Source of the DNA: Candidatus Marivariicella framensis
Lineage (GTDB): Bacteria > Bacteroidota > Bacteroidia > Flavobacteriales > Flavobacteriaceae
Assembly: GCA_905182735.1 (NCBI GenBank)
Contig: CAJJCT010000012.1
Span: 1 to 64,000, forward strand
Direction of reading: 5' to 3'
DNA length: 64,000 nt
The number at the start of each line of letters is the position of its first letter. Within the stretch, counting starts at the first letter, position 1. Both the position numbers and the translations under genes were made by a program. The notes under the pieces are model-generated. The model was not told the DNA's origin. It did not search any database and saw only the letters and a program-made list of their open reading frames with translations. Of this stretch, positions 20,236-47,211 are shown piece by piece.

Positions 20236-20940
20236 TCAGTGTGTAGAAATAATTTGATTATAAACTGTCAAATCAATTCGTTTTGGTTTTTTATTAATTT
20301 TATTCTCTTTAACAAATGCACAAAAAGCCTTTAACTTCTTTATTTTATTATCACTATTTTTAGAATCACCGAAATAGACCTCGAAATCATAATCTCTAAG
20401 CCTTATAGTGAATCCATATTTATCATCCCATACTTCAACAAGTTCTGATTTCAAATAACTGTCACTAATGATTGATTTTGACAACCTTATTAAATCTTCA
20501 ACATTTTCATCTTTAAAAACCCCACTATATATAGGGACTTTAGGAGTGTACTTTTTTGAAAACGGAATTTTTTCACCAAAATAATCTATATAAAAACCTT
20601 CATTATGAATTCTTAACAAAGCTGAACTTTCAAAAATTCTGGTATTAACAGTGCCATTGGCATCATAAAACACTTCCGCATTACGAACTTCAGGAAGTAA
20701 CTCTAAATATTCCTCAAGATCTTTCAAATCTAGTTTAAGATTTGAAAGATTTACTTTAATTCCTGTCTTTTGTATCAACAATTTATTAACGAGAGAATCA
20801 TTTAAAAAATTAGATTTGTTTTCAAAAAATAAAATATTGAATCTACTATCATTCCTATGATTAAAATTCCAATGAGATAAAACACTTAACCCCGACAAAA
20901 GAAGAGTTGTTAATCCAAGAAATAATTTTTCTTTAATCAT
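20236..20940 (-). CDS. ftsQ: Cell division protein FtsQ/DivIB-like
   Basis: A 234-aa bitopic inner-membrane protein: short cytoplasmic head, one membrane span (about 5-22), and a periplasmic region with a POTRA-like stretch (NLSNLKLDLKDLEEYLELLPEVRNAEVFYD) followed by the FtsQ domain. Sequence identity to model FtsQ is low, as usual in Bacteroidota; the call rests on topology, the POTRA-like segment and its place between murC and ftsA. It presumably links FtsL and FtsB-like proteins to septal synthesis. It overlaps the end of murC by 4 bases. Confidence 0.88.
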   Translation of the reverse strand: MIKEKLFLGLTTLLLSGLSVLSHWNFNHRNDSRFNILFFENKSNFLNDSLVNKLLIQKTGIKVNLSNLKLDLKDLEEYLELLPEVRNAEVFYDANGTVNTRIFESSALLRIHNEGFYIDYFGEKIPFSKKYTPKVPIYSGVFKDENVEDLIRLSKSIISDSYLKSELVEVWDDKYGFTIRLRDYDFEVYFGDSKNSDNKIKKLKAFCAFVKENKINKKPKRIDLTVYNQIISTH

Positions 20941-22265
20941 CTAATAGATTTAGTTTTTAAATATTCAGTTATATAACCTCCAATACTTCCTGCTCCTAAA
21001 ATTGCAACAACATCTGCTTTATTTGTGTCTAAATTTTTATTGAAATTTTTTCTATCTAAAAGAGCCGCTTTTGAAGTTATCTTTTTAAGAATTCTAAGAC
21101 TGTCTATTCCAGGAATCGGTTCTTCTCTAGCAGGATAAATCTGCATCAACTTAACGCTATCAAATTTTGATAATTCAAAAGCAAAATCATTAAGAAAATC
21201 TCTAGTCCTTGAGAACAAATGTGGCTGAAATATAACTTCAATATATGAATCTGGATATTTTTCTCTAAGAGTGTTATTTACAGCAGCTATTTCTGTTGGA
21301 TGATGAGCATAATCATCAATTATTATTTTATTATCAATTTGATGAGTTATCATTCTCCTCATAATTCCATCAAAAGTTCCTAATGATGGAATTATCTCCT
21401 CCAATTCATGTCCAGATTGATGAGCTAAGGCCAGAGCAGCCAACATGTTTTCTAAATTATGTTTACCAGTTACTTTACAGAATATCTTTGAGAAGCTTTT
21501 GTCTGGAGTCTTAATGTCTACATAATAACCGTCATTTGATTGATTACAGTTTTCGAAAACATAATCAGCTTTAACATTTAGACCATATGTTAGACCCTTA
21601 AATGGAATTGTGTGATGAATTATTAATTGACCCTTTACATTTTTGGAAAAATAATAAAATGCTTGCTTTAATGATTCATGACTTTTATATATATCTAGAT
21701 GATCTGCATCTAAAGAGGTGATACATGCTGCATAAGGATAAAGCTTTAAAAATGATCTATCAAATTCATCAGCTTCAACTACTGTCTTTTCAAATCCTTT
21801 ATGAATAAAATTAGTTTTCTCTGGCAACATTATTCCACCAACAAAAGCAGAAAATGACACTTTAATGTTTTTAAAAATATGAGTTAAAATAGAGCTAGTT
21901 GTGGTTTTACCGTGTGTGCCGGCAACCGCATATGATTCAGTATCATTAACTATTGAAGCTAAAAAAACTGCTCTTTTAATTGGAACATGTCCATTCAAAA
22001 CAAAATAACTTAGAATTGGATGTTCTGGTTTGATTGCTGCAGAATAAATAATTTGAATTTTACTTTTTTTGAAATATTTTTGTATACTATTAACTGAATC
22101 AGTAAAACTAATAACTGCTCCTTTACTCTCAAGTAAATCTGTTATATATGAAGAAGTTCTATCATAACCAAAAACTTTACAGCCCTTTAGAAGCAGATAT
22201 TGTGCTATTGAAGACATTCCAATACCACCAATTCCAATTAAAAAATATGTTTTAAAATTTTTCAA
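20937..22265 (-). CDS. murC: UDP-N-acetylmuramate--L-alanine ligase MurC
   Basis: First Mur ligase: adds L-Ala to UDP-MurNAc using ATP in the cytoplasm. It has an N-terminal Rossmann domain (IGIGGIGMSSIAQYLL), an intact ATP-binding loop (VAGTHGKTTTSSIL), the EADEFDRSFL acidic motif and a central DADHLDIY, followed by the C-terminal domain with DDYAHHPTEI and FQPHLFSRT. Length 442 aa is normal. All three domains and catalytic motifs are complete, in contrast to the truncated Mur ligase relative at 44677-45594. It overlaps murG and ftsQ by 4 bases each. Confidence 0.97.
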   Translation of the reverse strand: MKNFKTYFLIGIGGIGMSSIAQYLLLKGCKVFGYDRTSSYITDLLESKGAVISFTDSVNSIQKYFKKSKIQIIYSAAIKPEHPILSYFVLNGHVPIKRAVFLASIVNDTESYAVAGTHGKTTTSSILTHIFKNIKVSFSAFVGGIMLPEKTNFIHKGFEKTVVEADEFDRSFLKLYPYAACITSLDADHLDIYKSHESLKQAFYYFSKNVKGQLIIHHTIPFKGLTYGLNVKADYVFENCNQSNDGYYVDIKTPDKSFSKIFCKVTGKHNLENMLAALALAHQSGHELEEIIPSLGTFDGIMRRMITHQIDNKIIIDDYAHHPTEIAAVNNTLREKYPDSYIEVIFQPHLFSRTRDFLNDFAFELSKFDSVKLMQIYPAREEPIPGIDSLRILKKITSKAALLDRKNFNKNLDTNKADVVAILGAGSIGGYITEYLKTKSIR

Positions 22266-42641: not shown

Positions 42642-43337
42642 TTAATTTAATAATTTATGTAATTCCTTTATAGAATTTACGATTGTACATTTTTCATGTT
42701 TGGGTTCATTAGTTGAGTTGAAATGAATTGCATTCATACCAACGTTAAGGGCTCCCATAACATCTGCAAAAAAGTCATCTCCTATCATTAAGCAGTTTTT
42801 AGGGTTTTCTTTAACAAGACTTAGAGCATAGTTGAAAATTTTGCTGTTAGGTTTTTTTGCTAAAGAATTTTCTGGATTGATAATTTTATCAAAATAAGTA
42901 AGTATTTTGGAATTTTTTAATTTCATATACTGAACATCTTCAAATCCGTTTGTAATTATATGCAAATTATATTTTGGCTTTAAATGTTTAAGCAAATCAA
43001 TAACTCCCTCAAATAAAAAAGTTTGTGTAGGAAGAGTTTTCATGTATTCACAAGAAATTTCATCAATAAATTTTGCAGTACTATTAAACTTTAAGGCTTT
43101 AAAAGTTTCTTTCAAACGAATTGTCCTTAATTGTTCTGCACTTATTTTATTTTCACTGTAATAGTCCCAGTACTTATGATTAATTGGAATATAAAATGTT
43201 AAAAATTTTGAATGAGAAAAAGGAAAGCTTCTGTTATTAAAAATATTTTTAAAAGCTAAGGAGGAGTTTTTTTCAAAGTCCCATAAAGTATGATCTAAAT
43301 CAAAAAAAATTGTATTTACTTGATTAATAAATTTCAT
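42642..43337 (-). CDS. HAD-superfamily hydrolase, YjjG-like (pyrimidine 5'-nucleotidase type)
   Basis: Haloacid dehalogenase-fold phosphatase. Motif I FFDLDHTLWDF carries the nucleophile and acid Asp pair, motif II is ITNGFEDVQ, motif III Lys lies in AKKPNSKIFNYAL, and motif IV MIGDDFFADVMGA. The alpha-helical C1 cap and overall match suggest the YjjG group, which removes phosphate from non-canonical pyrimidine nucleotides. Length 231 aa. It overlaps the deacetylase-like gene by 4 bases. Confidence 0.9.
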   Translation of the reverse strand: MKFINQVNTIFFDLDHTLWDFEKNSSLAFKNIFNNRSFPFSHSKFLTFYIPINHKYWDYYSENKISAEQLRTIRLKETFKALKFNSTAKFIDEISCEYMKTLPTQTFLFEGVIDLLKHLKPKYNLHIITNGFEDVQYMKLKNSKILTYFDKIINPENSLAKKPNSKIFNYALSLVKENPKNCLMIGDDFFADVMGALNVGMNAIHFNSTNEPKHEKCTIVNSIKELHKLLN

Positions 43338-44626
43338 ATTTCATTAATAAACTTTAAAAAAGAGGAACGCCATAAAAGATTTTCTGAAGATTGTGATAAT
43401 AGTTTAGGGGTAAAAGCAAAACAAAATATTGAATTTTCTAGAGGTAGTTTTAAAAGATATTCTTTCATAACTTCAAAAGCATTTTTAACTGATAATTTCC
43501 TTAAAGCAAATTCAGTGATTGCAACAGGGTAAACCTTGAGAGGGCTTTGAACTTCATTTATTAAATCATAATAATAAAATGGGATCGAAGTACTTGCTCT
43601 ATAACCAATTTGATCAATGTAACCCATACTATAATCCTCTAAAACTTCACTTTGAACCAACATTGGGTATATTTCTGAAATTGATAAAATTCCTAAATTA
43701 AGTCTAACTTTTTGAGAATTTCTATGCGTTAGCTTTGTTAAATTCTTCATTTCATTTTTTAGAATTTTTATATTTTTTTGAGCAAAAGAAGAAACCAATA
43801 AACTAATGAAAATTTTATCCGAAATATTTTTAATTAATAATTTATATGAAGAGTTGAAAATTGAAATAGCACCAATATCAATACTGTGCTGGGTATATCT
43901 GAAAAAACCAAGAAGATCAATTTTGATGTTGTTAAACTGATCTGTTATAAAATCATACTCCAAGTATGGGTCTTTTGAAAGACGAAATAACACATAAACT
44001 TGATTAATCAAATTTTTAAAATTTAAATTCCAAATTGAATTTAGTGCTTGGAAAAATGATAGAAAAATTGATTTATTTTGAAACATATATGGTTCAGAAA
44101 CTTCAAAGACTGGAATTATATTTTTATTTTTTTTTGATTCTTTTATTGTGGTTTTGAATTTAATATTTATGATTTCAGCTAATTCAATTACCCATATATC
44201 TATAATTGGCTTATCTAAAAAATTATTTTTAAACGCTATACTTTCTTCAAAACAGAATCTACCACTAGCATCTTTTAAGTGAGGTAAATATTCTTCATAA
44301 CGACTTATTAAATAAAAACTTGCTGCAAAAATATCAAATGGCATAGCTGATTCAGCATTAACTTGAAAAAAAATAGGATACTTTTCAGTGTTTGAAACAT
44401 TAATTGAAATATCTTGAATTCCTTGATCAATTAAAAATGCTGTTGAATAAAAAAATAACTCATTACCCAAAGGCTTATTTGAATAGGAGAATTTCGGTCC
44501 ATTATGTGCTACAAAATCTTCAACAGATCCAGTCAAATTAATTTCTAATTCAAGCATCCTGAAAAAAATATGTTTAAAAACATACCGAATCCTTGGAGTT
44601 ATTTTAGGGGTATAAACCAAAAGCAT
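43334..44626 (-). CDS. Polysaccharide deacetylase-like protein (DUF7033 type) with apparently lost catalytic residues
   Basis: A 430-aa protein resembling the flavobacterial polysaccharide deacetylase family found next to obgE and adk. The N-terminal part is well kept (LLVYTPKITPRIRYVFKHIF, SYSNKPLGNELFF, PFDIFAASFYLISRYEEYLPH), but the C-terminal catalytic part is eroded. Where relatives, as I recall them, have a DVDxAY metal motif this has FEVSEPY (174-180). Where they have VGLHPSF it has ISLLVSSF (274-281). Where they have GFRAGTC it has GYRASTS (341-347). No stop or frameshift interrupts it. It is either a non-catalytic paralogue or an early pseudogene. It lies 50 bases after the truncated Mur ligase and overlaps the YjjG-like gene by 4 bases. 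Confidence 0.65.
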   Translation of the reverse strand: MLLVYTPKITPRIRYVFKHIFFRMLELEINLTGSVEDFVAHNGPKFSYSNKPLGNELFFYSTAFLIDQGIQDISINVSNTEKYPIFFQVNAESAMPFDIFAASFYLISRYEEYLPHLKDASGRFCFEESIAFKNNFLDKPIIDIWVIELAEIINIKFKTTIKESKKNKNIIPVFEVSEPYMFQNKSIFLSFFQALNSIWNLNFKNLINQVYVLFRLSKDPYLEYDFITDQFNNIKIDLLGFFRYTQHSIDIGAISIFNSSYKLLIKNISDKIFISLLVSSFAQKNIKILKNEMKNLTKLTHRNSQKVRLNLGILSISEIYPMLVQSEVLEDYSMGYIDQIGYRASTSIPFYYYDLINEVQSPLKVYPVAITEFALRKLSVKNAFEVMKEYLLKLPLENSIFCFAFTPKLLSQSSENLLWRSSFLKFINEI

Positions 44627-44676
44627 TTTAAAAGAAATTTTTAGATTTAGCTAAAATAAGGATTTACTATCATTAC

Positions 44677-45594
44677 TTAATCTCCTTGGTAGCTAATTAT
44701 AGCTTCATAAAAATCAGATTGGTAAATTCCTATGAGTTGGCATGCCCATAGCGCTCCTCCAATATTAATAAGACTATAGTCATTGTGAGAAATTAATGGA
44801 TAATTCCCTTCTTCTGTTTGTAAATTAACAACCCCTTTAAAAATAACGCTTCTTGGACTAGAGTAACTCTTTTTTTTAATAGTATGGTTTGAATTTTTAA
44901 CTAAATTATTTGTTTGATGATCATTCTCATTATAAATTAAAGTTCCTCCAGGGACTATATTATCTATTAATAAAGAAAAATACTTTTTATAACCCTCAAA
45001 AGAAGAATGTCTTTCAACATGTTTCCAAAACATAGATGTTATTATTGCTAAATGAGGATTAAAAAATTCAAATTTAGATAAATTATCAATTTTAGGTAAA
45101 ATGTTTTCATTTCCTTCAATAATTATAAAATCATTCTCTTTAGATAAATGAATTGAAGAATCAAACGCTGAAACTTTTTTATTGATAATAAAATCAAAAG
45201 AGAAATCATGAAATTTTAAAACATGTAAAATAATAGATATTATAGAAGTTTTCCCATAGGTTCTTCCAGCAACTAAAACTCTAGTTTTTTCTTTTGAAAA
45301 ATAGTTAATAAACTGTGTAATAGAAAATATCTTAATTTTCAGACTTTCAGCTCTTACAAATTCTGAATTATTGTTATTTAAATTAGAACCCAATATAATA
45401 AAATCAATGTTTTTAGTTATATTATTAGGGCGCCATCCTTCATAAAAGTTTAAATTATTTTTTTTGAAATTTTCTTTCAAACTCAATGAAATGTTTTCTT
45501 CACTAATAGACACTTCAAAATCAATATTTTTAAGAGCAGTTGCTAGACTTATAGTCTGTTTATCTATAGCTGAAATAAAATGGATTTTTTGCAC
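44677..45594 (-). CDS. Truncated, active-site-degenerate Mpl/MurC-like Mur ligase
   Basis: Aligns along its length with the first two domains of the flavobacterial peptidoglycan-recycling Mur ligase (Mpl-like, usually about 450 aa), but stops at 305 aa (DFYEAIISYQGD), just where the C-terminal domain should begin. The N-terminal glycine motif is lost (ISAIDKQT). The ATP loop has an extra residue (GRTYGKTS at 110-117 instead of GSHGKTT). The acidic EGDEY motif reads EGNEN (160-164). WDH reads WKH (190-192). The start is GTG. Only 50 bases separate it from the next gene, so the third domain is deleted, not frameshifted. Ligase activity is very unlikely. Confidence 0.72.
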   Translation of the reverse strand: MQKIHFISAIDKQTISLATALKNIDFEVSISEENISLSLKENFKKNNLNFYEGWRPNNITKNIDFIILGSNLNNNNSEFVRAESLKIKIFSITQFINYFSKEKTRVLVAGRTYGKTSIISIILHVLKFHDFSFDFIINKKVSAFDSSIHLSKENDFIIIEGNENILPKIDNLSKFEFFNPHLAIITSMFWKHVERHSSFEGYKKYFSLLIDNIVPGGTLIYNENDHQTNNLVKNSNHTIKKKSYSSPRSVIFKGVVNLQTEEGNYPLISHNDYSLINIGGALWACQLIGIYQSDFYEAIISYQGD

Positions 45595-45600
45595 CTCAAA

Positions 45601-46608
45601 TTATTTCACTTCATTTAAAAGATTCCAAAGACCATCCTTGAGAAGGTCAAGTCCTCTTTTTGAGATAGATGAAATTAAAAAATGTGGAATTTTATCAAAA
45701 TAATTTTTCATTTCAATTTTATACTCCTCGAATAATTCGTCATCTAATAAATCACACTTAGTTAATGCAATTGCAAAATTTTTATCTAATAATTCTGGAT
45801 TATATTCCTTTAATTCCGCTATTAAAATTTCAAAATCTTTTTTAACATCTTTTGAATCACATGGAATCGTAAATAATAAAATTGAATTTCTTTCTATATG
45901 TCTCAAAAAATAATGCCCTAATCCTTTTCCTTTTCCCGCTCCCTCAATTATACCAGGGATATCTGCAATTACAAAAGATCTGAAATCACGATAAGGAACA
46001 ATACCTAAGTTTGGTTTAAGTGTTGTAAATTCATAATCAGCAATTTTTGGTTTTGCTCCAGTTACAGCAGCTAATAATGTTGATTTTCCAGCATTAGGAA
46101 AGCCCACTAATCCAACGTCTGCTAAAACTTTAAGTTCTAGAGTTACAGCCAATTCTTTTCCTTTTTGTCCTGGCTGTGCATATCTTGGAGTCTGTCTTGT
46201 AGAAGATTTAAAGTGCCAATTACCCAGACCTCCTAATCCACCTTCAAGAAGAATGACTTCTTGTTTTTTTTCTGTAATCTCAAATAGCGTTTCATTAGTA
46301 TTTGAGTCTTTAAAAACTGTTCCAAAAGGCACCTCTACATAAATGTCCTGACCTTGAGCTCCAGAACTTCTATTTTTACTGCCATGCTCTCCATGACCTG
46401 CTGAAAAATGTCGCTTAAATTTAAAGTGATATAGTGTCCATAAATTAGAATTAGCTCTAATTATCACATGCCCTCCTCTTCCTCCGTCACCTCCATCGGG
46501 TCCACCCTTGGTGATAAATTTTTCTCTATGAAGGTGAATTGAGCCTTTTCCTCCATTCCCAGAGTCTACATTTAACTTTACATAATCCACAAAATTACCT
46601 TCTGTCAT
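45601..46608 (-). CDS. obgE: GTPase ObgE/CgtA
   Basis: Essential GTPase of ribosome assembly and stress signalling. The N-terminal glycine-rich Obg fold ([25 protein letters not shown], then [19 protein letters not shown]) covers about 1-158. The G domain follows, with [11 protein letters not shown] (G1), [12 protein letters not shown] (G2), [16 protein letters not shown] (G3), TKCDL (G4) and SSISKRGL (G5). The variable C-terminal OCT domain is absent, as in many Bacteroidota; 335 aa. It is 1 base after adk. Confidence 0.97.
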
Positions 46609-46609
46609 T

Positions 46610-47185
46610 TTATTTAATTTGATTAATCAAATTAATTAATCGATTTTTTATTTCATCAATTGTTCCAATGCCATTAATATTAAACAATTTATTCATGGAG
46701 TTATAATATTTTTTTAATGGAGATGTTTTTGTGTTATATTCATTAAAGCGATTACGGATTTTATCAATATCTTGATCATCGGTTCTTCCACTTAACTGAC
46801 CTCTTTTAATTAATCGTTCTTCTAGAATAGAATCCTCAGCTTCCAAAGAAATAGTGGCTGTTATTTTCATGTTAATGGATTTCATAAAAGAATCTAATGC
46901 CTCAGCTTGCGAAATTGTTCTTGGAAAACCATCAAAAATAAAACCATTAACATCATGATTTATATTAACCTGATTTATTAACATTTCAATAGTAACTTGA
47001 TCTGGAACTAAACCTCCTTTATCAATATAAGACTTAGCTAAAAGACCAAATTGAGTTTTATTTTTAATATTATTTCGAAATAAATCGCCAGTAGATATAT
47101 GAACTAAATTATAATTTTTTTTTAAGAATTCTGCTTGTGTTCCCTTTCCAGATCCAGGTTTTCCGAATAATATAAGATTAATCAT
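46610..47185 (-). CDS. adk: Adenylate kinase
   Basis: Catalyses ATP + AMP to 2 ADP, setting the adenylate energy balance. The P-loop [10 protein letters not shown], the AMP-binding segment [28 protein letters not shown] start [10 protein letters not shown] and the closing [15 protein letters not shown] are present. It is the short-LID type without zinc cysteines. I choose the start at 47185 ([13 protein letters not shown], 191 aa); the frame is open to 47206 but those residues are not conserved and overlap the promoter box. In related genomes hpt commonly precedes adk; here purK diverges instead. Confidence 0.96.
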
Positions 47186-47203
47186 ATAACTAAAATTAAA
47201 AAC

Positions 47204-47211
47204 CAAATATA
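47204..47211 (-). promoter_or_regulatory. Putative -7 element (TATATTTG) for the adk-obgE run
   Basis: Exact TAnnTTTG match on the minus strand, 18 bases ahead of the adk ATG at 47185. No TTG at 19-21 bases. It also argues against the longer adk start at 47206. Confidence 0.5.

Follow-up and report, generated by a model that had tools for sequence, protein, structure and literature searches.

Recurrent half Mur ligases in Flavobacteriaceae, possibly retained for a function independent of catalysis

Mur ligases are three-domain enzymes and drug targets. In the 64,000-nucleotide stretch of Candidatus Marivariicella framensis analyzed here (contig CAJJCT010000012.1, positions 1 to 64,000; hereafter, the window), the gene that follows obgE resembles a Mur ligase but encodes far too short a protein, which raises the question of whether it is a decaying remnant or is kept for something other than ligation. 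An earlier note, made from the DNA alone, had described this gene and its deacetylase-like neighbor as two open frames of 305 and 430 aa, both stripped of catalytic residues, and had suggested one shared cause. Both frames proved to be open over the intervals given in Table 1.

Table 1. Features of the locus and of the internal control in the window
Feature	Position	Strand	Remarks
Half Mur ligase (Mpl/MurC-like), 305 aa, GTG start	44677..45594	-	uninterrupted ORF
DUF7033 / VimE-like polysaccharide-deacetylase-like protein, 430 aa, without metal/catalytic His-Asp set	43334..44626	-	uninterrupted ORF
Final ~95 codons of half ligase (middle-domain end: PGGTLIYNEND ... Y.SP ... WACQLIGIYQSDFYEAI)	44680..44964	-	best-conserved stretch in half ligases
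obgE	45601..46608	-	upstream neighbor of half ligase; species tree marker
adk	46610..47206	-	upstream neighbor
HAD-family hydrolase gene	42642..43337	-	overlaps DUF7033 stop
Intact MurC in dcw cluster	20937..22265	-	internal control (AGTHGKTT, EADE, DADHLD, DDYAHHPTE retained)

We compared the window ligase with its full-length relatives, which are ~450 aa long and have a C-terminal domain besides the GSHGKT, EGDEY and WDH motifs. All four, within a full frame, were found at 78 of 80 named loci, the exceptions being L178, whose C-domain motif differs, and L215, whose frame has 360 aa and lies close to the end of a contig. In the window, the P-loop GGSHGKTT has become AGRTYGKTS, in which a one-residue insertion breaks the GxxGKT/S spacing, the acidic motif EGDEYLSS has become EGNENILP, and the DH motif WDHINVFPT now reads WKHVERHSS, no longer WDH(I/V)N. 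The broken ATP loop and the altered acidic and DH motifs reported earlier were thus borne out. The UDP loop is also gone (SAIDKQTI), with E at the D31/D32 pair. A larger loss had been overlooked: the entire C-terminal domain (PF02875; ~150 aa, DFAHSPSK...), which scores above the cut-off in the full-length relative G008, is missing, and the frame ends at FYEAIISYQGD, exactly after the middle domain and 50 bp from the next gene. PaMpl uses its C-terminal domain to bind the tripeptide, and three residues of its ATP site, Arg358, Asp373 and His376, also lie there (PMC3060825). Judging from the missing domain and motifs, the window protein cannot plausibly act as a working Mur ligase. The window also has a dcw cluster whose MurE, MurD and MurC are all normal, so AT-rich drift in general does not account for the motif loss.

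The remaining part is still recognizable as a Mur ligase. Pfam Mur_ligase_M (PF08245) matched at 49.6 bits, and the MurC and Mpl models scored the protein best among families, yet far under their cut-offs (68 bits against a curated cut-off of 388.7 bits for Mpl, TIGR01081). Because even the full-length relatives G008 and G041 reached only 181 and 159 bits on TIGR01081, we use “Mpl-like” as a homology label. An AF2 model of the window ligase (pLDDT 86; residue 1 missing) matched the N and middle domains of MurC/Mpl in Foldseek with TMq 0.77-0.81, although this agreement in fold is partly built in, the model having been made on an alignment of full-length homologues. Compared with the murein ligases Mpl and MurC (PaMpl 3hn7, NmMpl 3eag and HiMurC 1p3d), the half ligase therefore has homologous N and middle domains but no C-terminal domain and no intact P-loop, acidic motif or DH motif.

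Half ligases with the same end (about residue 302 of the full protein) were found in five other lineages, namely G403, G114/G316, G272/G044, G333/G139 and G035. The groups with a half ligase ending there are g109, g39, g134 and g244, plus G035 from another family. Several of these genes occupy the place of the full gene. The ancestral order is mpl-radC-DUF7033-HAD, and the half ligases of G403, G114 and G316 lie within it, while those of G333 and G139 adjoin a gene for a very large protein, which in G008 and G011 is a neighbor of the full-length ligase gene. A further ancestral form is obgE-mpl-DUF7033-HAD. No ancestral slot was recognized for G272, G044 and G035. The window locus has no radC; this gene lies between the ligase and DUF7033 genes in most relatives and is gone from that locus in the window’s genus.

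The ObgE tree required six changes of state and rejected a single half-ligase clade (AU p 9e-99, log-likelihood difference 261); six is the number obtained on the best ObgE tree, in which the deep forks are weak. For the window’s genus, G035 and g244, the case for separate origins comes from branches with support or from grouping with full-length relatives. In an unmasked ligase tree the half ligases clustered together, which we read as long-branch attraction. When motif columns were masked and one lineage was included per run, the window and its sister G005 joined the full-length ligases of G041/G319, and G403 joined those of G017/G007/G024. One ancient half-ligase lineage is contradicted by the ObgE tree, the gene slots and the masked single-lineage trees. 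These results show that the truncation evolved on several occasions, at least, among related marine bacteria.

To what extent such proteins are under selection can be seen most clearly in g244, here called Allomuricauda because its member G419 and the uncultured Allomuricauda L218 share 11 kb of identical sequence. A half ligase of ~300 aa was found in 15 of the 31 sampled species, and in the DUF7033 tree 14 half-ligase rows formed one clade beside the full-length sister L211, with all frames open. Among these half ligases, dN/dS had a median of 0.129 (range 0.110-0.181; 21 pairs with dS < 1.5, NG86). In the least diverged Allomuricauda pairs it was 0.02-0.06 for full-length ligases and 0.03-0.07 for DUF7033 proteins. 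The lowest rates within the half ligases, 0.079-0.107, fell in the last 90 residues (KGGSITY..ED..ENPIRK..TPDG..P..AGAKW.CQQMG.DEVEFYEA). With dN/dS near 0.13 at unsaturated dS and the strongest constraint at the end of the protein, the half ligase is a selected pseudoenzyme in Allomuricauda, its presumed inactivity following from the missing domain and motifs.

The slowest Allomuricauda stretch is also the one best kept over all six half-ligase lineages. Across these lineages, catalytic columns were kept at 8-44% and late middle-domain columns at 83-94% (columns 211-225, 241-255 and 286-300, retention 0.83-0.94). In g134 (L245-L252), the proteins are down to ~190-215 aa and the N domain is gone; the end residue is the same and the conserved late stretch is still present.

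Within the window’s own genus the picture is more mixed. Out of seven genomes, only the window and G005 carry the half ligase, and the gene is absent in G001, G002, G003, G004 and G006. The G005 copy is an open frame of 303 aa with the same end and 47% identity to the window copy, in which the motifs are damaged differently (its P-loop region reads GINGKKTL). The DUF7033 gene is retained in all genomes of the genus and is open in four of the five ligase-less sisters, where obgE adjoins it, except that in G003 an unrelated gene intervenes. The degenerate pair that the earlier note had proposed to look for in sister genomes thus recurs in one sister and is lacking in five, where DUF7033 stays without the ligase. 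Since five of the seven genomes do without the gene, the half ligase is dispensable there. The gene between obgE and DUF7033 in G003 encodes a 298-aa protein (L063:5057-5953) and fills the place of the absent ligase; in G041 and G319, genes of about that size separate obgE from the full ligase. In G002 (L066:7336-8641), internal stops split DUF7033 into two frames, reflecting either an assembly error or a pseudogene.

Accordingly, the main competing explanation is that in the window’s genus the half ligase is on its way out, under relaxed selection after the loss of activity, and that neither survivor has so far fixed a disrupting change. The five losses, which leave obgE beside or near DUF7033, are consistent with this, as is the different motif decay of the two surviving copies. 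Between the window and G005, dN was 0.43 for the half ligase, four to five times the 0.096 of ObgE, and 0.224 for DUF7033. However, both survivors are fully open at 47% identity and saturated dS, which would be unexpected if they were neutral at this base composition. Under simulated neutral drift with the base composition of the window, 7.6 stops accumulated per 0.2 substitutions per site, and none of 1,000 runs remained stop-free. The earlier expectation that such AT-rich sequence should quickly gain stops if neutral was therefore sound, and chance is excluded as the reason why the window and sister frames are open. In addition, every examined member of the Allomuricauda clade retains its half ligase at a dN/dS of 0.13. 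We regard an outgoing gene as unlikely, though it deserves serious weight.

The dN/dS comparison proposed earlier thus gave low values in the Allomuricauda clade and, for the window and G005, a dN of little use as a ratio at saturated dS, so that selection on the window copy can be read only indirectly. The window copy is probably also a selected pseudoenzyme, with slow decay as the chief rival given the gene loss in the genus.

Because a dead half protein is clearly selected in one genus, it probably has a non-enzymatic job. On balance we lean towards the reading that the 305-aa protein of the window is a pseudoenzyme kept for a non-catalytic job of the middle-domain end, most likely protein binding. 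A flavobacterial Mpl/MurC-like ligase would have lost its C-terminal domain, and the nucleotide- and UDP-sugar-binding residues would have gone as well. The remainder would then have been retained for a non-catalytic job residing mainly at the middle-domain end, most likely the binding of another protein, possibly as a scaffold. The window copy may have the same role as the Allomuricauda copies.

Instead of a protein, the half ligase might bind a small ligand, acting as a sensor of UDP-MurNAc or a nucleotide without ligating it. In Allomuricauda half ligases, the UDP-site residues G9, M13 and D31 are mostly present, and some keep the P-loop lysine. However, the window copy has neither the UDP loop nor the D31/D32 pair in its original form, and the g134 half ligases do without the N domain altogether, making a sensor improbable.

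We further examined the neighboring deacetylase-like protein, which the earlier note had linked to the ligase. It matched DUF7033 (PF23019) at 99 bits, well above the gathering score of 27, and no credible PDB relative was found with a DUF7033 sequence profile. Its similarity to VimE (NF053580) and carbohydrate esterase 4 is that of a distant relative sharing the DUF7033 domain: it scored 91.8 bits against the VimE cut-off of 440 and lacks the D-D-H-H-H set. At these five positions it has E175, S177, L277, N310 and T406, so that the reported loss of His/Asp positions was correct; D331 and R343 are retained. The surveyed DUF7033 proteins all have D331 and nearly all have R343, and the full D-D-H-H-H set occurs in only 6 of 50. 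Most Flavobacteriaceae whose 450-aa ligase is intact lack the set, Ca. Arcticimaribacter (L154) among them, and the five sites read N-T-S-R-S in Allomuricauda with half or full ligase alike. As these sites are lost alongside intact ligases and are the same in both Allomuricauda groups, the decay of DUF7033 is older than and independent of that of the ligase. The neighbor degenerated separately and earlier, is strongly constrained, and its decay is uncoupled from the ligase’s. VimE-like proteins without the His/Asp set, at the dN/dS given above for Allomuricauda DUF7033, constitute a second widespread pseudoenzyme candidate.

It is therefore very improbable that the ligase and the deacetylase-like protein were jointly converted into one non-catalytic module, as the earlier note had suggested. 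The two genes are adjacent and both lack catalytic residues, but the partner has decayed in most genomes whose ligase is intact, it outlives the ligase in five sisters, and no DUF7033 gene was found in three half-ligase genomes (G272, G044 and G035). A single shared cause of both losses is contradicted by the same observations, and the idea of a non-catalytic module survives for the ligase by itself, which is open, dead and under constraint in Allomuricauda. Finally, it is barely conceivable that a C-terminal domain from another gene restores a working ligase: nothing was found in favor of such a split gene, no C-domain remnant other than that of MurC was detected in the window or any half-ligase locus, a MurC profile search of the window’s own genome returned no additional C-domain match, and the P-loop, acidic and DH motifs are gone too.

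Loss of peptidoglycan-fragment recycling, previously offered as the driver, found no support. The LD-carboxypeptidase LdcA (PF02016) had no match in the seven genomes of the window’s genus; it was likewise absent from the full-ligase relatives G041, G319, G010 and G309 and present in the half-ligase genomes G403, G114, G316, G333 and G139, a distribution without correlation to the form of the ligase.

The use of a Mur-ligase homologue as a structural component of a different complex has a precedent in plants, where the MurE-like protein PAP11 forms part of the plastid RNA polymerase (PMC9456514, PMC12681378). Unlike the half ligase, PAP11 is a MurE homologue from plants and retains the C-terminal domain, which makes contacts. 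Our literature search, which had partial coverage, returned no report on a Mur-ligase pseudoenzyme, on DUF7033, or on Mpl in connection with Bacteroidetes. Half-ligase genes should not be annotated as peptidoglycan ligases.

We tentatively propose that non-catalytic half Mur ligases recur in Flavobacteriaceae and that their middle-domain end preserves a function independent of catalysis, one that the full-length enzyme would share. Such a hidden role can be tested directly in Allomuricauda, whose sister species include carriers of the half form and carriers of the full form. That the same domain was lost repeatedly and in place, while what remained stayed under selection, points to a second, non-catalytic role of the full flavobacterial Mpl-like protein, one that may outlive its reaction.
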